A DNA stretch of 64,000 bases from Granulicella arctica. Its GTDB lineage: Bacteria; Acidobacteriota; Terriglobia; Terriglobales; Acidobacteriaceae. A program made the position numbers and the translations under genes. The stretch lies in contig NZ_JACCCW010000001.1 of NCBI RefSeq assembly GCF_013410065.1, forward strand, positions 1,731,187 through 1,795,186. The letters are read 5' to 3'. Below, piece by piece: positions 1,886 through 16,089 of the stretch; position 1 is the first letter of the stretch, and every line of letters starts with the position of its first letter. The notes beneath the pieces are model-generated. The model was not told the DNA's origin. It did not search any database and saw nothing but the letters and a program-made list of their open reading frames with translations.

Positions 1886-4624
1886 CTACTGTGGCAGAGC
1901 CTCCAGCGCGGCCTTTGCCTTGTCATACAGCATCTGCGTCTCCGATGACTGCTTTCGCAGGCTTTCGACGATGTGTGCCGGTGCTTTGGACATGAAGGTC
2001 TCATTGCCCAACTGACGCTCCGCTGCTGCGAGGCCCTTTTCGAACTTCGCAATATCTTTCGTCAGTCGCTCACGCTCTGCGGCCACGTCGATCTGCCGTT
2101 CGTAGACGACGGCGACGTCGAACCCTGCCGCGCTGCGCGTGTTGTCGCCCGTCAATGCGGTAGAGGCGAACTCGATCTCGCTTACCCGCGCCAGACGAGC
2201 CAGTAGGGCTTTATTGTCGTCTGCAAGGGCCACCACGCGGTTGTCGGCGAAGACGATGATGGGTGTGGCTTCTTTCTCGGGAACAGCCATCTCCTTGCGC
2301 AGGCCGCGGACGGTCACGATCATCTGCTGCAAGACCTCCATGGCGGACACGCTGGCGGCATCGGAGGCGATATCTGCGGCCTGGGGGAAGCGCGTGAGCG
2401 CGATGGACTTTGCTGGTGCCGCGTTGTCGTAGAAGGCGTGCCAGATCTCTTCGGTGATGAAGGGCATGAAGGGGCTGAGCAGGCGCAATGCGGCTTCGAA
2501 TACGGCTAGAAGCGTCGTCAATGCGGTCTTCGCCGCAACTAGATCGGCGCCCTCGCCGAACTCCAGACGAAGTTTGACGATCTCGATGTACCAGTCGCAG
2601 AAGTCGCCCCAGAAGAACTGGTAGATCGCGTTTGCTGCTTCATCGAAGCGGTACTGGCTCAGAGAGGAGTCTACTTCAGCCGAAGCAGCACTGAGCTTCG
2701 CTAGAATCCAACGGGTTTCGAGTGGAGCCTCGTCGACGTTGCGGAGTGCAGCGTCGAGCTTCGTCAGATCGACGGTGACGCCAGCCTCCTGTGCGCGATC
2801 GACGTTCATGAAGAGGAAGCGTGCCGCGTTCCAGATCTTGTTGGCGAAGGCACGATAGCCTTCGGTGCGAGCCTCGCTGAAGGCGATATCGGTGCCGGGC
2901 GAGGCCATGCTTGCGAGGGTGAAGCGCACGGCATCTGTACCGAAGCGACCGATGATGTCGATTGGATCGATGACGTTGCCCTTGGTCTTCGACATCTTCT
3001 GCCGGTCCGCATCGCGCACCAGAGCGTGAATGTAGACCTCTTTGAAGGGCACTGCGTCCTTCAGTTCACGCGGGCTGCCATAGGGCATCGGAACGTCGAG
3101 CATGAAGTGGCAGCCGAGCATGATCATGCGTGCGACCCAGAAGAAGAGGATGTCGAAGCCCGTGACCAGCAGTTGCGTCGGGTAGAACGCGGCGAGATCG
3201 GGCGTGCTTTCCGGCCAGCCAAAGACGGTGAAGGGAAGCAGGCCGGAGGAGAACCAGGTGTCGAGGACGTCTGTCTCCTGCACGATCTCTGCGGAGCCGC
3301 ACGTGCCACAAGATGTCGGCGTTTCGCGCGAGACGGTGATCTCGCTGCATGCGCTACAGTGCCAGGCCGGGATGCGATGCCCCCACCAGAGCTGGCGCGA
3401 GATGCACCAGTCGTGGATGTTGCGCATCCACTCGTCGTAGGTCTTGCGGTACTGGTCGGGCGTGAACTTGATGTGGCCTTCGTCGACGGCACGGATGGCC
3501 TTGTCGGCGAGGGGCTGAATCTTGACGAACCACTGCTTGCTGAGGCGCGGCTCGACGACTGTCTTGCAGCGATCGCAGCGGCCAATCGAGTTGTTGTGAT
3601 CCTTCACCGCGACCAGCAGGCCAAGCTCCTCGAGGTCCGCGAGAATCTGCGTCCGGGCCTGATACCGATCCAGTCCTGTATAGACGCCGCCTGCCTCATT
3701 GATGTGGGCGGTCTCATCCATCACATTGATGTTGGGCAGGTTATGGCGTTGGCCGATGGCGAAGTCGTTGGGATCGTGCGCCGGGGTCACCTTGACCGCA
3801 CCGGTGCCGAACTCCGGATTCGCCCAGTCGTCTGCGACGATGAGGATCTCGCGGCCGACTAGTGGCAGCTTCAGCATCTTGCCGATCATGGCAGCGTAGC
3901 GCTGGTCCTTGGCATTGACGGCCACGGCGACGTCGCCCAGCATCGTCTCCGGGCGCGTGGTTGCGATGACGATGGAGCCGGAGCCGTCGGCGAGCGGGTA
4001 GCGGATCTCCCACAGCTTGCCGAGCTGGTCCTCGTGAACGACCTCGAGATCTGAGATTGCAGTCTGACAGCGCGGACACCAGTTGACGATATAGGCGCCC
4101 CGATAGATCAATCCCTGCTCGTGCAGGCGGACGAAGGCCTCTTTGACCGCGATGCTCAGCCGGTCGTCCATGGTGAAGTACTCGCGGCTCCAGTCGACAC
4201 TGGCGCCGAGACGCTTCATTTGGTCGAGGATCGCGCCGCCGTAGACACCCTTCCACTCCCAGACGCGCTCGACGAAGGCCTCGCGGCCCAGCTCCTGGCG
4301 CTTTTTGCCCTCGCCCGCAAGCTGGCGCTCCACCATCATCTGCGTGGCGATGCCGGCGTGGTCGGTTCCGGGGACCCACATCGAGATCTCGCCCGACATG
4401 CGATGCCAGCGGGTCAGGATGTCCATCTCCGCCTGATTAAGCATATGGCCCATGTGCAGGCGGCCTGTTACATTGGGCGGAGGCAGCAAAAGGGTGAACT
4501 TTTTGGTTGCCTTGGACGTATTTTCTGGCGTGGCTACATCAAACAGGCGCTCGCGCACCCAGTATTCAGCCCAGCGTTCTTCTATGGCGGTCGGATCGTA
4601 TGCTTTTGGCAGTTCGTGGCTCAT
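1886..4624 (-). CDS. valS: Valyl-tRNA synthetase
   Basis: This 912-residue class I synthetase charges tRNA-Val. The HIGH-type motif HMGH is at residues 57-60 inside the PPPNVTGRLHMGH segment and the KMSKT motif is near residue 543. An editing domain lies between them, with zinc-type Cys pairs (CPRC near residue 180, CDRC near 347, CSAC and CGTC further on). The C-terminal 70 residues are a charged coiled coil typical of ValRS. It is the first gene of the minus-strand cluster; the next gene upstream is divergent and begins about 100 bases away. Confidence 0.97.
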   Translation of the reverse strand: MSHELPKAYDPTAIEERWAEYWVRERLFDVATPENTSKATKKFTLLLPPPNVTGRLHMGHMLNQAEMDILTRWHRMSGEISMWVPGTDHAGIATQMMVERQLAGEGKKRQELGREAFVERVWEWKGVYGGAILDQMKRLGASVDWSREYFTMDDRLSIAVKEAFVRLHEQGLIYRGAYIVNWCPRCQTAISDLEVVHEDQLGKLWEIRYPLADGSGSIVIATTRPETMLGDVAVAVNAKDQRYAAMIGKMLKLPLVGREILIVADDWANPEFGTGAVKVTPAHDPNDFAIGQRHNLPNINVMDETAHINEAGGVYTGLDRYQARTQILADLEELGLLVAVKDHNNSIGRCDRCKTVVEPRLSKQWFVKIQPLADKAIRAVDEGHIKFTPDQYRKTYDEWMRNIHDWCISRQLWWGHRIPAWHCSACSEITVSRETPTSCGTCGSAEIVQETDVLDTWFSSGLLPFTVFGWPESTPDLAAFYPTQLLVTGFDILFFWVARMIMLGCHFMLDVPMPYGSPRELKDAVPFKEVYIHALVRDADRQKMSKTKGNVIDPIDIIGRFGTDAVRFTLASMASPGTDIAFSEARTEGYRAFANKIWNAARFLFMNVDRAQEAGVTVDLTKLDAALRNVDEAPLETRWILAKLSAASAEVDSSLSQYRFDEAANAIYQFFWGDFCDWYIEIVKLRLEFGEGADLVAAKTALTTLLAVFEAALRLLSPFMPFITEEIWHAFYDNAAPAKSIALTRFPQAADIASDAASVSAMEVLQQMIVTVRGLRKEMAVPEKEATPIIVFADNRVVALADDNKALLARLARVSEIEFASTALTGDNTRSAAGFDVAVVYERQIDVAAERERLTKDIAKFEKGLAAAERQLGNETFMSKAPAHIVESLRKQSSETQMLYDKAKAALEALPQ

Positions 4625-7881: not shown

Positions 7882-9321
7882 CTACTCGTTGGCGCGCGAG
7901 CGTCTGCTGGTAAAGGTCTGTGGAGGTTCGGGTTGCTCCATGACTTGCTCGACGACTTGTACGGTGCGTTCGACCTCGGGACGGCCTTCGTGCGGGATGC
8001 GCACCTTCGCTCCCTTGGCCAGATCGCGCCGGGTCTCGGCCATGGCGGTGGGCTCACCGAGCGTCATCCGAGCTGCGCCGCGCAGAATCTTGCGCAGTGG
8101 CCAGCCTCCGTCGGAGGTGGGGAAGAAGACCTCGCCGGACCGTTGTTTTTCGGGACGATAGTACCAGCGGCGCAGCAGCGACAGATGATCGCTCAACATG
8201 GCAACGTCGGTGCTTCCTTGGGTCTTGTTGCCGAGGGCAGCGAGCGCTTCGGCGGCGCGCTCCTCGGGGCTTGCTAAACCTGGGTTGGCAGCCTCTGGTG
8301 CAGGAGGGGCGCTGTCGGTTGAGGCCAATGGAACGGCTTGTAGCATCAGCGGCTGGGCAAACAAACTGCTGCCGACGCTGGTCTGCTCCTTGACTGCGCG
8401 GACGCCGAGGGTTGAGAGGCGTTGGGGACCAGCAAGGCAGCCGCCCTCGAGGAGGAAGAGGGAGGCTTCGAGGGTGTCGTCGCCGGTTGCGTGTGCCGCC
8501 TGCACAATGACCGCACGCAGAGCTGGAATGGGGCGGACCAGCTCATCGGCCAGCGCGGCGGCGGCTTTGACCTTTTGCCACTGGGTGTGGAGGGCCGCTG
8601 CCTGCTCGAACTCCATCGCAGCGGATGCCTCCTCCCGCTCGAGGCCGATCTGGATGACCATGCTCTCGCCGTGGGTATCGAAGAAGGCTTTGACGGCGGC
8701 GGCCTCGGCGGCATACTGATCCGGAGTACACGCCTCGTTGCATGGCGCGAGGCACTTCTTCATCTCCTGGTACACGCATCCGGGATGCTCGGGGTAGGGC
8801 TCCAGATCCTCATAGCAGCGGCGCAGTTTGAAGAGATCGAGCACCGCATCGCAGTAGCGCTCTGCCGCTGTCCGCGACGGAAAGGGGCCGTACATCTGCG
8901 TCAGTCCGCGCTTCGAGAGCTTATTGGTCGAGTAGACGCGGGGAAAGCGATTCTCCATCGTCAGCCGTAGGAAGTAGGGCGTGTGCAGCTTCAGCCTGCG
9001 CCTCGCCTCGGCATAACCGAACTGCGCGGCCGCTGCGTGGTAGAGCACAAGCGTCGATTCGAACTCGGAGCCGGTGACGGAGTACTCGATGCGGGCGACT
9101 TTATCGCGCAGGTTGAGACGCTTCGACTGCGACTCCGGGGGAGCGAGCAGCCGGGTCATCCGCCGTCGCAGATCGGCTGTGCGTGTTAGGTATGGCTCAT
9201 CGCTCTCGCGTGCGCCACGGAGCGCAAAGACGCCTGGAAGCGCAGGTACGGCGCGAAGAATCGCCTGTGCCTGCTCGGGAGCGAAGTCTACGATGTGATC
9301 GAACTGGAAGCTGGCCGCCAC
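7882..9321 (-). CDS. UvrC-like protein with degenerate GIY-YIG site and no C-terminal nuclease
   Basis: The 479 residues follow the order of UvrC's N-terminal half. A GIY-YIG-like segment lies at about 29-54, then a UvrC-type body (RFPRVYSTNKLSKRG, YGPFPS), a Cys cluster (CVYQEMKKCLAPCNEAC) near residues 185-205, and a UVR-like helical motif (EREEASAAMEFEQAAALH) near 236-253 that in UvrC contacts UvrB. The catalytic signature is altered: PGVFALRG replaces GVY, and YLTRTADLRRR replaces YVGKAxxLRxR. The RNaseH-like nuclease and HhH tail of UvrC are absent. I infer a non-nuclease UvrB-binding or regulatory paralogue. It precedes rpe and follows the tldE operon. Confidence 0.78.
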   Translation of the reverse strand: MAASFQFDHIVDFAPEQAQAILRAVPALPGVFALRGARESDEPYLTRTADLRRRMTRLLAPPESQSKRLNLRDKVARIEYSVTGSEFESTLVLYHAAAAQFGYAEARRRLKLHTPYFLRLTMENRFPRVYSTNKLSKRGLTQMYGPFPSRTAAERYCDAVLDLFKLRRCYEDLEPYPEHPGCVYQEMKKCLAPCNEACTPDQYAAEAAAVKAFFDTHGESMVIQIGLEREEASAAMEFEQAAALHTQWQKVKAAAALADELVRPIPALRAVIVQAAHATGDDTLEASLFLLEGGCLAGPQRLSTLGVRAVKEQTSVGSSLFAQPLMLQAVPLASTDSAPPAPEAANPGLASPEERAAEALAALGNKTQGSTDVAMLSDHLSLLRRWYYRPEKQRSGEVFFPTSDGGWPLRKILRGAARMTLGEPTAMAETRRDLAKGAKVRIPHEGRPEVERTVQVVEQVMEQPEPPQTFTSRRSRANE

Positions 9322-9349: not shown

Positions 9350-10747
9350 TTAGGACCCGGCGATCATCATGCCTTCGATGCGGATGGTCGGCGCTGCGCT
9401 CGCGCTGCGGAAGACGAGGTCGTTTCCGATGGCGACGATGTTCTTGTACATGTCCTTCAGGTTGCCGGCGATGGTGATCTCTTCGACCGGGTAGGCGAGC
9501 TCGCCGTTCTCGATCCAGAGGCCGCTTGCGCCCTGCGAGTAGTCGCCGGTGACGAGGTTCACGCCGAAGCCCATGGTCTCCGTGACGTAGAGGCCGTCCT
9601 TCACGTCGCCGATAAGCTGCTCGGGGGTAAGGGTTCCGGGTTCAAGGTAGAAGTTGCCGGCACCGATCCCAGGGGTTCCGGCGAGACCGCGCGAGGCGTT
9701 GCCGGTCGAGGCCATGCCCAGTTTGCGGGCGGTATAGGTGTTCATCACGTAGTTCTTGAGGATGCCCTTTTCAACGAGCACCGTCCGCCGCGTCGGCAGA
9801 CCTTCGCTATCGAAGGGAGAGGTGCCGAAGCCGCCGACCTTGATGCCGCCCTCGTCGAATACCAGGGTGCCATCGTCGACGACGGTGATGTTCTCGCCCG
9901 CGACCTGCTGGCCGAGCATGTCGGCAAAGAAGGTCGCGTGCCGATAGATAGCGTCGCCGTTGGCCGCATCGAAGATGTTGCCGATGATGGATCGGGCGAT
10001 CTCCGGCGAGAAGACGACGGGGGCCTTCTGGGTCTTCACCTGGCGCGCTCCGAGGCGGCGGAGCGCACGCTGGGCAGCGATGCGGCCGATCTCTTCGGGC
10101 GATTCGAGCTTCTTTGTGGTCCGCGAGTTCGAGAACCAGTAGTTTCGCTGCATCCCGCCCTTCTCATCCTGCGCAATCGGAGAGGTGGAGAAGCCGCAGT
10201 AGCTGCGACGGTACTCGCCGATGAAGCCGCGTGAGTTCATCAGGATCTTGTGCGACGTGGACGTGTCGAAGTCGCCGCCGCCTGAGTTCTGGATGCGGGT
10301 GTCGAAGGCCATGGCCGCTGCCTCCGCTCGTCGGGCGATCTCGATCCGCTCCGCAGGCGGCTGCTCGTTGACATCCTCGAAGTACAGCGCGAGATCGCCA
10401 GCGAGTTTGCCGAAGGCTTCCGGTTCGGGTAATCCGGCAAAGGGATCTTCGCTGGTGATCTTCGCCAGGGTGATGGCTCCGTCGACCAGCCGTGCGATGC
10501 TTTCGTCGGAGAAGTCGGAGGACGAGGTGCTTGCCGTCCGCTGCCCGATAAACACGCGCAGGCCGACGGCGCGGGAGCCGGACTCCTTCAGCATCTCAAC
10601 CTGTCCCAGACGGACACGTGTCTCGAACTCGTCGCCCTCATAGACGACCGCTTCAGCGTCCGTCGCTCCCGCCTTCATGGCTTTGGTGAGGACGTCGGAG
10701 GCGAGTTGTTTCAGGTCGGACGAGAGAGCAGGGGCAACAGAAGACAC
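9350..10747 (-). CDS. tldE: TldE/PmbA-type metalloprotease subunit
   Basis: This 465-residue protein belongs to the TldD/PmbA family. TldE forms a heterodimer with TldD that degrades unfolded peptides and, in Escherichia coli, matures microcin B17 and degrades CcdA. Family features include the SGSRAVGLRVFIGQR N-terminal region, DFDTSTSHKILMNSRG, DDGTLVFDEGGIKVGGFGTSPFDSEG in the C-terminal half, and the terminal NLVTGDYSQGASGLWIENGE segment. It lacks the HExxxH zinc motif, as expected of the TldE subunit. It is the last gene of a four-gene cluster with two small paralogues and tldD upstream. Confidence 0.92.
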   Translation of the reverse strand: MSSVAPALSSDLKQLASDVLTKAMKAGATDAEAVVYEGDEFETRVRLGQVEMLKESGSRAVGLRVFIGQRTASTSSSDFSDESIARLVDGAITLAKITSEDPFAGLPEPEAFGKLAGDLALYFEDVNEQPPAERIEIARRAEAAAMAFDTRIQNSGGGDFDTSTSHKILMNSRGFIGEYRRSYCGFSTSPIAQDEKGGMQRNYWFSNSRTTKKLESPEEIGRIAAQRALRRLGARQVKTQKAPVVFSPEIARSIIGNIFDAANGDAIYRHATFFADMLGQQVAGENITVVDDGTLVFDEGGIKVGGFGTSPFDSEGLPTRRTVLVEKGILKNYVMNTYTARKLGMASTGNASRGLAGTPGIGAGNFYLEPGTLTPEQLIGDVKDGLYVTETMGFGVNLVTGDYSQGASGLWIENGELAYPVEEITIAGNLKDMYKNIVAIGNDLVFRSASAAPTIRIEGMMIAGS

Positions 10748-10759
10748 GAAATCAGAACC

Positions 10760-11068
10760 TCAGCGGACAGGGGATTGGGAGAGACGGGGCTCGCGGCCAT
10801 CGGTCGCATTCTGGAAGTAGATGCCGCTGGGGCAGTACTCCGAATCGCTCTTCGACTTATGCTTCATGTGCCGCGTCGCCTCATCGGCGGTGGTGCGAAC
10901 GTTCAGCTTGACCGGACCAAAGCAGTCCTTGCAGCGGAACTCGGTGTCGCTGTCGGCGATCGCGTCGATAACCGTCTTCAGCTTCCAGAACGGCTCGTAG
11001 CCTCCCGCAGCGCGGACGCGGCGGCGCTTTACCTGGCACTCATGGATCATCTCGCGTTCGGTTGCCAT
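10760..11068 (-). CDS. Small Cys/His protein, copy B, between tldD and tldE
   Basis: This 102-residue protein has no function I can recognise. It aligns along its whole length with the neighbouring 102-residue gene: Cys11, Cys46, Cys49, His70 and Cys79 are at identical positions, and the segments VKRRRV, GYEPFWK, DSDTEFRCKDCFG and ATDGR are shared. The CxxC plus outlying Cys/His suggests one zinc site. It lies 12 bases upstream of tldE and should be co-transcribed with it. The region after residue 55 and the C-terminus are the most divergent between copies. A TldD/E partner, adaptor or substrate role is inference only. Confidence 0.85.
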   Translation of the reverse strand: MATEREMIHECQVKRRRVRAAGGYEPFWKLKTVIDAIADSDTEFRCKDCFGPVKLNVRTTADEATRHMKHKSKSDSEYCPSGIYFQNATDGREPRLSQSPVR

Positions 11069-11136
11069 CCTTCACCTCGGGTATACATAACTTGATTGGT
11101 GCGTGGATGATTCTTTCCGGGTTGGTGCGGGTGCAT

Positions 11137-11445
11137 CTACTCGACGGGGTGTTCGGAGGGCTTCGCCGCCCGCCCGTCCGTGGCTTTTTTGAACAACAGG
11201 CCACTCACGCAGAATTCGGAGTCGGCCGTCAGTTTGTGCTCGACGTAGGGAACGGTGGTTACTTTGCCGTTGCGGCCAAGTAGCTTAACCGCGCCGAAAC
11301 AATCCTTGCAGCGGAACTCGGTATCGCTATCGGTGAGGGCCGTGGCGACGCTCTTGACCTTCCAGAATGGCTCGTATCCGCCACCCTCTTTGACGCGACG
11401 ACGTTTTACTTCACACTCATACATCTTTTCGCGTTCGGCTGCCAT
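11137..11445 (-). CDS. Small Cys/His protein, copy A, translationally coupled to tldD
   Basis: This 102-residue paralogue of the adjacent downstream gene has the same Cys11, Cys46, Cys49, His70 and Cys79 pattern and the same GYEPFWK and DTEFRCKDCFG blocks. Its ATG shares one base with the TAA stop of tldD (reading TAATG), which indicates translational coupling. A 68-base gap separates it from the second copy. Tandem duplication followed by divergence is the simplest reading. No family name is recognised. Confidence 0.87.
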   Translation of the reverse strand: MAAEREKMYECEVKRRRVKEGGGYEPFWKVKSVATALTDSDTEFRCKDCFGAVKLLGRNGKVTTVPYVEHKLTADSEFCVSGLLFKKATDGRAAKPSEHPVE

Positions 11446-12887
11446 TATTGTCCCGTTCCTCCGACCGTCATGCGATCGAGTTTCACTGTCGGCATGCCTA
11501 CGCCTACCGGGACGCTTTGCCCGGCCTTGCCGCAGGTGCCAATTCCTTCATCCAGGGCAAGATCATTCCCCACCATGGACACATACTTCAAAGCTTCAGG
11601 GCCGTTGCCGATCAGCGTTGCGCCCTTAACCGGCCGGGTCACCTTGCCGTCTTCGATCAGGTACGCCTCGCTGGCGGAGAAGACGAACTTGCCGTTGGTG
11701 ATGTCCACCTGACCGCCGCCAAAGTTCACGGCGTACAGACCACGCTTGACGCTCTTGATGATATCTTCTGGCATATCGTCGCCGTTGAGCATGTAGGTGT
11801 TGGTCATGCGCGGCATGGGAATGTGGTGGTAGCTCTCGCGGCGTCCGCTGCCGGTATTGGGCATGCCCATCAGGCGAGAGTTGAGCTTGTCCGAGAGAAA
11901 TCCCTTCAGGATGCCGTTCTCGATCAGCACGGTCTCCTGTGTCGGGTGGCCCTCATCGTCCATATTGATGGAGCCGCGCCGGTTCGGCATCAGGCCGTTA
12001 TCGACGACCGTAACCTTACTGCTTGCCACCTGCTGGCCGATCAGACCGGCGAAGGCGGAGGTCTTCTTGCGATTGAAGTCGGCCTCAAGGCCATGCCCGA
12101 CGGCTTCGTGCAGCAACACACCGGGCCAGCCGGGGCCGAGAACGACGGGCATCTCGCCTGCGGGAGCATCGACCGCTCCGAGTTGCAGGATGGCTGTGCG
12201 GGCGGCCTCGCGGGCAAAGTGCTCCGGCGATTTGTCACCTTCGAAGAAGTCCATCGAGATGCGTCCGCCACCGCCGCTGGTGCCGCGCGCGGTGTTGATG
12301 CCGTCTTTGGCGATCACGAAGATATTGAGGCGGGCGAGCGGCTGCGTATCGCTCGCGAAGGTGCCGTCGGATGCGGCGACGAGGATACGTCGCAGCTCGT
12401 CGTTGAAGCCGGCGCGAACCTGCGTGATGCGGGAGTCATAGGCGCGGGCGGCCTTGTCGGCCCGCTCGATCAACGCCAGCTTGGCGGCGATCTCGGCGTC
12501 GGATGTGGCTCCGGCGACGGGATAGAGCGCGGCGGACTCAGTATGGCGGAACCCGCTCATCAGCTCCTTAGCAGGGCCGCTGGCGATCAGTGCAGCGGTG
12601 CGCGCGGCGCGGAGCAGGCGGCTACTGGATAGGTCGTCGGTGTAAGCGTAGCCGGTACGTTCGCCCGAAACCACGCGGATGCCGCAGCCGACGCTGATGC
12701 CCTGACTGGCAGATTTGACCAGCGACTCGTCGATCCCGAGCGAGGTGGAGGTGACGGACTCAAAGTAGAGATCGGCGTAATCGCCACCGGCGGAGAGCGC
12801 TTCTCCGAGACAGCGTTCCATCAGACGTTCCGAAAGGCCGAGCTTTTGAATGAAATATTGCTTGTGGTCTGACGGCGGGAATGTCAT
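11445..12887 (-). CDS. tldD: TldD zinc metalloprotease subunit
   Basis: This 480-residue protein carries the catalytic HEAVGHG segment near residues 260-266, an HExxxH zinc motif that defines TldD, plus the family's GGGRISMDFFEGDKSPEH, NRRGSINMDDEGHPT and RMTNTYMLNGDD segments. With TldE it forms the TldD/E protease that removes unfolded peptides and leader sequences in the cytoplasm. It is the first gene of the cluster; its stop codon overlaps the start of small-protein copy A by one base. No classical TldD/E target (microcin B17 or ccdAB genes) is in the window. Confidence 0.95.
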   Translation of the reverse strand: MTFPPSDHKQYFIQKLGLSERLMERCLGEALSAGGDYADLYFESVTSTSLGIDESLVKSASQGISVGCGIRVVSGERTGYAYTDDLSSSRLLRAARTAALIASGPAKELMSGFRHTESAALYPVAGATSDAEIAAKLALIERADKAARAYDSRITQVRAGFNDELRRILVAASDGTFASDTQPLARLNIFVIAKDGINTARGTSGGGGRISMDFFEGDKSPEHFAREAARTAILQLGAVDAPAGEMPVVLGPGWPGVLLHEAVGHGLEADFNRKKTSAFAGLIGQQVASSKVTVVDNGLMPNRRGSINMDDEGHPTQETVLIENGILKGFLSDKLNSRLMGMPNTGSGRRESYHHIPMPRMTNTYMLNGDDMPEDIIKSVKRGLYAVNFGGGQVDITNGKFVFSASEAYLIEDGKVTRPVKGATLIGNGPEALKYVSMVGNDLALDEGIGTCGKAGQSVPVGVGMPTVKLDRMTVGGTGQ

Positions 12888-12935: not shown

Positions 12936-13790
12936 TCAGCGACCCTGCGATGGGTCCGGTGAAAGAGAGACGTTCAGGTCCAACGACAAGCCTTTGGGTG
13001 CACCGGCGTAGCAGTCGCCGTCGGGGGCGTAAGTCTTTGCGCATGAGGCGGTAATCTCCGGTCGCCGGGGAGATTGGGCATACTGCCACACAATTGCGCC
13101 GGGCGTTCCGCTGCCGGAGAGACGCGGCGGTTGCACGGTGCAGCCGGGAGCTGGCGGGCAGGCATCCTGGTAGACCCACATCGCGATTTCGTGCAGGTGC
13201 TGTGCGGCGACGTGTTGCCGGATGTCCTGAGCCGTCGTGATGGTGACTCCGGGGCCGTCATCGACCGGCTGGCCGCTGGCGTAGACGCCGGGACGGTATC
13301 CGGAGTTCGCGACGGCTTCCGTCCATGCGAGTAGATAGGCCATCTGCTCCGGCAGCAGGCGGCCACCCTCCTCCTGGTCGAGAAAGAGGATCGTGTGCGG
13401 TGGAAAGTGCTCCTGGGTTGCTGCTGCAACGGCAACGGCCGCGTCTCGTCGGCCAAGCACCTCTGGTTTGAGGCCCGAGGTCTTGATCTGTTTGTCGAAC
13501 TTGCCGTTCGTCAGCACGAGGAATCCAAAGCCCTGCCGCAGCAGGATGTCGCGTTTGCCTGCCCAGCCGTTTTTATGTTCGCCGGGAGGGTTGGTTAGCC
13601 AATATCCGGTAAACGAGAAGGTTTTGCGCAGGACAGGGAGCACGCTGTCGCCCGGATAGTCATTGCGGTCGAAGCCCACATAGCCTGGGGAGACTGGAGT
13701 TGCTGCGATCTGAGCATTTGAGCGGCCTGTGGTGGCCAGCAATATTGCCGCAATCAAGACACACATACGCATGTACAGACTCATCGACAT
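12936..13790 (-). CDS. Secreted DUF1906-type (glycoside hydrolase-like) protein
   Basis: This 284-residue protein has a signal peptide (about 1-27, ending near SNAQ) and a TIM-barrel-like domain resembling DUF1906/Rv2525c-type glycoside hydrolase-like domains. It opens with GYVGFDRNDYPGD, continues with FSFTGYWLTNPPG and TILFLDQEEGGR (acidic residues on a likely catalytic strand), then RPGVYASGQPV and IVWQYAQSP. These match the fold of GH25-like enzymes acting on cell-wall glycans, but the substrate is unknown. It is divergent from the BstA-like gene, with about 130 bases between them. Confidence 0.7.
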   Translation of the reverse strand: MSMSLYMRMCVLIAAILLATTGRSNAQIAATPVSPGYVGFDRNDYPGDSVLPVLRKTFSFTGYWLTNPPGEHKNGWAGKRDILLRQGFGFLVLTNGKFDKQIKTSGLKPEVLGRRDAAVAVAAATQEHFPPHTILFLDQEEGGRLLPEQMAYLLAWTEAVANSGYRPGVYASGQPVDDGPGVTITTAQDIRQHVAAQHLHEIAMWVYQDACPPAPGCTVQPPRLSGSGTPGAIVWQYAQSPRRPEITASCAKTYAPDGDCYAGAPKGLSLDLNVSLSPDPSQGR

Positions 13791-14448: not shown

Positions 14449-14496
14449 CGAACTGTTGCCTTGTGTAACAGGTTGGCTACCGATAGCATCCTCTTC

Positions 14497-16089
14497 ATGT
14501 CCCCGCCCAGAGCTTCTTCCGCGGAACCTGTACAGCCTCCCGAGGCCATCGCATTGGCGCTCGAAGCATTTCTCGCCGAACATCCGGGAGCTTTTGTCCT
14601 CGAAGACGGCAAAGTTCTCTTCTCCATGCACGAAGCGAAGTATTCGCTGACGACCGAGCATGGCCGCTGCACGCTGCATCTTTGGAACGAGGAGCGCAAC
14701 CTCGTCCGCCGCGTTGGAGCATCGACCCTGCGCAATGGCGTCCTGCGGCTGAGCACGCACCGCTTCGGGCAGACCAAGCCGCAGACGCTGGAGCTTGCTC
14801 CGGATCGTGACCGTCGCACGCCTTCTAGCCGCGAGGCGACGCGCACGAAGTATCTGCGGACGCTGGAGCGTGTGTTGCTGCGTTCTTTTCCCGATTGGAA
14901 GACCGATGCCTTTCGCACTGCAATGGACCTCGAGAAGAGCTTCGGTCCGGCCTACGCCCGCGGAATGCTGGTGCAGGGGCAGAAGGCATGGGCTGTAATC
15001 GCGGTCAACGACGAAGAGACGCAGGCGACAGTGGACGGCATCCTGACGCTGGGGATCCTGTGGCTGCATCATTGCCGCGAGCAGGCTGCGGGGAGGCGGC
15101 TCTTTCAAGGGCTGCGGATCATCGCCCCTCGCGGCATGGCGACCCTGACCGTCTCACGTCTCGCGTGGCTCAATACGGTTGCCGCACAGTGGGAGCTCTG
15201 GGAGCTTGATGAGCGTAGCGAAGAGCTTGAGCAGCGGGATGCTGCTGACCACGGCAACCTGGCCACGAGGCTGGTTCGCGCCCCTGGTGCGCAGGCCGCA
15301 CAGGATCGCTTTGCCGAGGCCGCATCGCGCGTCATGGCGCTCGTCCCGGAGACGATGCGTGACGTCGTCGAACAGCGGATTCGCAGCGGAACGGAGCTTG
15401 CGTTCCTGCTGCATGGTCTGGAGTTTGCAAGAGCACGCATGGCTGTATCGGCGGCGTCCTTCAACCGTTCGCTCGAGATCACCTTCGGCGCCGGGGCGAA
15501 TGAGACGTCTCTGACGTATGAGAATGAAGGCGATCTCCGTGAGTTGACGGCGCGGCTCTTTGCCCGCCGAACGCCGGATGGCGATCATCGCGATCCGCTC
15601 TACCGGATGCAGCCGGAGCGGTGGCTCGAAAGCGTGTTGCGGCGCAATCCGGAGCCGATCGACCCGCACCTCGATGCCGCCCATGTCTATACACAGGTGC
15701 CCGCGTTTGCGGCGGCGGATCGCGGCATGCTCGACCTGCTCGGCGTATGCCGCGACGGCAGGCTGGCGGTGATCGAGCTGAAGGCAGAGGACGACCTGCA
15801 CCTCGCGCTGCAAGGGTTGGACTACTGGGTGCGAGTGCGTTGGCACCATCTGCAAAATCCTGACCAGTCGACGGGGCTTGGCGAGTTTCAGCGGCTCGGG
15901 TACTTCGGGGGTATGTACCTGTCGCCGGAGGCGCCACGCCTTTATCTGGCCGCTCCTGCACTGCGGATCCACCCTGCCACGGAGATCGTCCTCAAATATC
16001 TGTCTTCCCGGGTCGAATGGACACTGGTGGCGCTCGATGAGCGCTGGCGCAAGCGGATGAAGGTAGTTTGGCGAAAACGGAGCAGCTAA
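14497..16089 (+). CDS. Unknown protein with a candidate PD-(D/E)XK nuclease-like core
   Basis: About 530 residues from the ATG at 14497; an in-frame TTG at 14461 would add 12, and neither start has a strong ribosome-binding site. I recognise no named family. Near the C-terminus is DRGMLDLLGVCRDGRLAVIE followed directly by LKAEDD, giving Asp413, Glu427 and Lys429 in the D...ExK arrangement of restriction-endonuclease-fold nucleases, followed by an amphipathic LALQGLDYWVRVRWHH helix. The N-terminal two-thirds is a charged alpha-rich region with no motif I can name. Nuclease function is inference. It is convergent with the next gene and shares the CTAA stop overlap. Confidence 0.72.
   Translation: MSPPRASSAEPVQPPEAIALALEAFLAEHPGAFVLEDGKVLFSMHEAKYSLTTEHGRCTLHLWNEERNLVRRVGASTLRNGVLRLSTHRFGQTKPQTLELAPDRDRRTPSSREATRTKYLRTLERVLLRSFPDWKTDAFRTAMDLEKSFGPAYARGMLVQGQKAWAVIAVNDEETQATVDGILTLGILWLHHCREQAAGRRLFQGLRIIAPRGMATLTVSRLAWLNTVAAQWELWELDERSEELEQRDAADHGNLATRLVRAPGAQAAQDRFAEAASRVMALVPETMRDVVEQRIRSGTELAFLLHGLEFARARMAVSAASFNRSLEITFGAGANETSLTYENEGDLRELTARLFARRTPDGDHRDPLYRMQPERWLESVLRRNPEPIDPHLDAAHVYTQVPAFAAADRGMLDLLGVCRDGRLAVIELKAEDDLHLALQGLDYWVRVRWHHLQNPDQSTGLGEFQRLGYFGGMYLSPEAPRLYLAAPALRIHPATEIVLKYLSSRVEWTLVALDERWRKRMKVVWRKRSS

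Follow-up and report, generated by a model that had tools for sequence, protein, structure and literature searches.

In a 64,000-nucleotide stretch of the Granulicella arctica genome (contig NZ_JACCCW010000001.1, positions 1,731,187 to 1,795,186; hereafter the window), two small genes for putative zinc-site proteins, for which we use the shorthand Z, are located between tldD and tldE, the genes of the heterodimeric metalloprotease TldD/TldE (TldD/E). One or two such genes occupy this position in many soil bacteria of the Acidobacteriaceae, which hints at a possible undescribed helper of TldD/E. In a search of the organism's own family, 81 of 90 examined genomes (40 of the own genus and 41 of other genera) had Z next to tldD and/or tldE, a linkage that is wider and stronger than the original prediction, which considered only the sequence of the window, could see. 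We tentatively read Z as a zinc-finger accessory factor, either an adaptor or a regulator, that would be made together with TldD/E, and give this reading nearly an even chance.

Location and linkage of the Z genes

The four genes lie on the minus strand and are transcribed in the order tldD (11445..12887), copy B (11137..11445), copy A (10760..11068) and tldE (pmbA; 9350..10747, with a GTG start). Copies A and B are 57% identical; they are 102-residue paralogues, in agreement with the original prediction, which had also coupled one copy to tldD through a TAATG overlap; that copy is B, which begins on the final base of the tldD stop codon. The predicted order of tldD, two copies and tldE is real and recurs across relatives. 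The tldD product (480 residues, the catalytic subunit) and the tldE product (465 residues, its partner) each contain all three PmbA_TldD Pfam domains, far above cut-off, and are ordinary members of the TldD/TldE (PmbA) family (MEROPS M103). Scored with NCBIfam models, the tldD product exceeds the TldD cut-off of 513, at 584 bits, and the tldE product is nearest to the PmbA model, at 358 bits, which is under the cut-off of 438. Residues 16–478 of the tldD product align with the E. coli TldD structure 5nj5 (3e-155), and the alignment shows that the HEAVGH (HExxxH) motif and the cysteine of the GxCGK metal-ligand region are kept. Compared with E. coli TldD/TldE, the locus in the window differs by the two small zinc-site genes between tldD and tldE. 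In the parts of two TldD/E papers on which we draw here (PMC5810440, PMC10885120), an accessory protein of TldD/E goes unmentioned.

Among 100 relatives the gene is present in 47, all of the own genus, and in all 47 carriers the first Z copy directly follows tldD with a gap of at most 215 nucleotides. Thirteen of 60 genomes of the genus are without Z, and these form one clade. The gene sets found between tldD and tldE in Z-less genomes of the genus (L083–L086, L089–L094 and L097) differ, with MFS-transporter-like genes recurring in four of 11 and cation/proton-antiporter-like genes in three of 11 (named by eye); the interval has therefore been opened and filled in various ways. Named records supplied 55 stretches, corresponding to 53 loci, from Granulicella, Edaphobacter, Terriglobus, other Acidobacteriaceae and a few records with other labels. 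Z lies between tldD and tldE in 44 of these loci; in the remainder, only tldD is beside Z within the stretch in five, only tldE in two and neither in two (L128 and L155). The only Z copy of Terriglobus roseus DSM 18391 lies 2 bases after tldD and 7 bases before tldE.

Copy B is of the form that we call type I. The type I profile matched 31 genomes in a sample of 299 from the class, 30 of them from the own family, and a wider profile matched ten in a sample of 199 from the phylum, all from the own family; plasmid and phage collections gave no matches to B. Nine weak relatives from the class sample were fetched, of which two from other genera (L161 and L163) lie between tldD and tldE and seven do not; a tenth, stronger match (L169) is linked. 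We use type II for the second subfamily, defined by L161 and L163; it has a characteristic 'CSLGDCFDG' ending and is approximately 28% identical to type I, and profile comparison indicates that the two types are homologous (97.2%, E 3.4e-11). Both types occur in one genome of the own genus (G005), in the order tldD, type I, type II, tldE.

The family-wide search used a type II alignment with five seeds, including the unlinked L160, and matched 95 of 398 genomes, of which 90 were examined and five weak matches (G417, G450, G457, G672 and G772) were left out. The linked genomes span 11 genera (g1, g30, g34, g35, g36, g42, g45, g47, g127, g130 and g133), and only unlinked relatives were found in nine of the 90 (G039, G124, G150, G222, G403, G416, G654, G687 and G785). 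All 16 matches with E below 1e-20 are linked, and the next two (G011 and G046) are unlinked. A set of 90 loci (49 of the own genus and 41 others) was picked because they are linked; in every one Z and its tld neighbour are on the same strand, and the fetched stretch shows both neighbours in 74, only tldD in 13 and only tldE in three, one of which (L221) starts at the very end of tldD. As a side observation, the tldD/tldE slot of L278 (G733; 1346–1650) contains a Z-type match split into two parts that overlap, which may represent a copy in decay. Homologues scattered away from tldD/tldE would, by the original prediction, have spoken against a functional link. Both subfamilies proved to be linked, with single stray copies as exceptions (L128, L155/L294 and L160), and scatter is found only in more distant relatives that share the zinc pattern. 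The stray copy in L128 (5001–5309; L037/L128) is a third, orphan type I copy of Edaphobacter lichenicola M8US30 (G025), downstream of KaiC-like ATPase and PAS-like genes (named by eye).

Z is nevertheless accessory: most other genera surveyed are without it. The regions downstream of tldD in 60 other genomes of the family, searched with the type I model and the CxxC-H-C pattern (the type II model was unused, and the known carriers G304, G309 and G337 were left out), were without Z in 57.

Conservation, putative zinc site and predicted fold

The Z genes are more than chance reading frames, as shown by the number of homologues, the constant gene slot and the low ratios of nonsynonymous to synonymous substitution (dN/dS). 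A database search with B returned 787 homologous proteins, and profile searches returned 1194 and 1099; among those listed (the best 120 of 787, 1194 and 1099), every one carries the precomputed domain PF27389.1. To our knowledge, Pfam PF27389 has no known function. A simple pairwise method gave dN/dS values of 0.03–0.24 where computable (19 of 28 B pairs and 17 of 21 A pairs, with the other nine and four being saturated), and Z is under strong purifying selection.

The original prediction had proposed five shared zinc-site residues. Four of them, Cys46, Cys49, His70 and Cys79, are invariant across 40 aligned relatives, and the CxxC...H...C pattern is invariant in both alignments used (A1 and A2). 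The fifth, Cys11, did not hold up: it is replaced by Ile or Val in three of the 40 and is absent from type II. Because Cys11 varies, the putative zinc site is likely to be a CCHC site formed by the other four residues. Two further blocks, VKRRR..GGYEPFWK near the N terminus and DGR....S..PV near the C terminus, are also invariant or nearly so. The AlphaFold2 model of copy B (type I), based on alignment A2, shows a confident fold; it has a mean predicted local distance difference test score (pLDDT) of 87.3 and a predicted template-modelling score (pTM) of 0.74, and consists of two long strands and a short helix followed by the zinc-site half. The type II model has the same strand–strand–helix order at moderate quality (pLDDT 70.8, pTM 0.47). 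A structure search of the PDB with the predicted Z fold gave no matches.

Neither copy scored above threshold in the Pfam copy searched, NCBIfam, PHROGs or PADLOC. The nearest label for copy A is DUF7830 (PF25169), at 20.4 bits with a cut-off of 27.5. Among 26 Z members, weak matches were found to CoiA_N (PF25164) in four, to DUF7830 in 11 and to DUF7828 (PF25165) in six; the best CoiA_N match has an E value of 7.4e-4, CoiA_N matches are under the curated cut-off of 26.3 bits where bits are shown, and copies A and B do not match PF25164 at E 1. All three domains share with Z the order of CxxC, then His, then Cys, and the metal-site pattern of a CoiA_N protein above cut-off (L253) and of a CoiA_N-type protein (L255) is the same as that of Z. 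The putative zinc site of Z resembles the N-terminal finger of CoiA, below family thresholds. Unlike whole CoiA, Z is a stand-alone protein of approximately 90–108 residues, without a nuclease domain behind the finger.

This finger pattern and the conserved basic stretch VKRRR would suit a small nucleic-acid-binding protein controlling its own operon, as would the sub-threshold nuclease match behind the finger of L255 (E 0.079), a protein from the class to which the organism belongs. We consider such autoregulation improbable, since Z is located inside the operon and not at its head and the CoiA_N link is sub-threshold; moreover, the promoter-like matches (four found, 1.3 expected), which include one ahead of tldD and one where B starts, prove nothing. 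Slightly less probable still is that Z is a metallochaperone that supplies the HExxxH/Cys site of TldD with zinc. The conserved zinc-type ligands of Z and the frequent coupling of its translation to the metal-binding subunit would fit this role, but the fixed spacing of the CCHC site looks structural, and the absence of Z downstream of tldD in most of the surveyed genomes argues against it. It also counts against this role that recombinant E. coli TldD holds Zn or Fe (PMC5810440). We know of no Z-like protein for E. coli TldD. The metal ligands of TldD, the HExxxH motif and a third, cysteine ligand, are taken from the same paper (PMC5810440).

Neighbouring genes and unlinked relatives

Just upstream of tldD and on the same strand, gene 12936–13790 (minus) encodes an Rv2525c-like glycoside-hydrolase-like domain. 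Downstream of tldE is a UvrC-like gene (7882–9321, minus), residues 22–253 of which match UvrC models under their cut-offs (TIGR00194, 88 bits). The neighbours examined also comprise rpe, DinB, a BamD-like gene and an open reading frame at 14461–16089 without an NCBIfam match. Modification enzymes are absent among these neighbours, and Z was rejected as the precursor of a ribosomally synthesized and post-translationally modified peptide: it has no leader with a variable core, is conserved over most of its length and has a folded model.

A third subfamily of approximately 88 residues (CKYCHGPVQ...HIEH) recurs in genomes of the family (L164–L167, L239, L291, L306–L310 and L312), with neither tldD nor tldE inside the fetched stretches. 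Two further distant, unlinked relatives lie near recombinase-like and ParA-type partition protein-like genes (L315, around 1356–1625) and near a methyltransferase-like gene and a recombinase (L314, around 2992–3234), as named by eye, surroundings hinting at mobile or defence contexts.

Possible roles beside TldD/E

Several observations weigh against a tight partnership with the protease. In the named loci, DinB and the Rv2525c-like gene before tldD are each present in 35 of 49 loci with tldD, and the UvrC-like gene follows tldE in 35 of the 46 loci with tldE; the wider block is syntenic and the linkage in close relatives is therefore partly shared descent. Z showed no co-variation with TldD or TldE, and the Z-less clade has no excess of changed sites in TldD (one, compared with 0, 1 and 1 in control clades) or in TldE (none, compared with 0, 11 and 2); in the tldE tree the presence labels were set by hand and G005 was entered as single-copy (L125, with its type II copy omitted). 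Finally, linked and unlinked lineages are intermixed in a Z tree of 104 columns, which fits either one or two origins of linkage, the two subfamilies having either a common linked ancestor or separate recruitments. Z may be a passenger with a job of its own, such as nucleic-acid binding, that sits in a conserved operon or in a permissive tldD–tldE gap. We regard this as rather unlikely, as the same slot is held by two diverged subfamilies in 11 genera, stop/start overlaps occur on either side of Z, and Z is retained beside one tld gene where the pair is split.

The accessory-factor reading, in which zinc-finger Z would be co-produced with TldD and TldE and act as an adaptor or regulator, can be set against what is published on the protease. 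TldD/E occurs in approximately 60% of bacterial genomes, has no clear general role in the cell and recognizes peptides irrespective of their sequence (PMC5810440, PMC10885120); it degrades unfolded peptides, and published modelling requires approximately 15 unfolded N-terminal residues of a substrate (PMC5810440). Because no more than about nine residues precede the first strand in the Z model, a substrate role appears to be the weakest of adaptor, regulator and substrate. A fuller proposal, which we hold with less confidence than the accessory role itself, is that in Acidobacteriaceae a zinc-finger protein would be a dedicated third component of TldD/E and would select or gate substrates, duplicated into two specialized forms in one genus and represented by a strongly diverged second subfamily in the same slot in other genera, so that a sequence-indifferent protease would gain specificity through an adaptor. 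The linkage to tldD and tldE gives Pfam PF27389 a genomic context, and its recurrence in the TldD/E operon across 11 genera makes this small protein a concrete starting point for work on the specificity or regulation of the protease.
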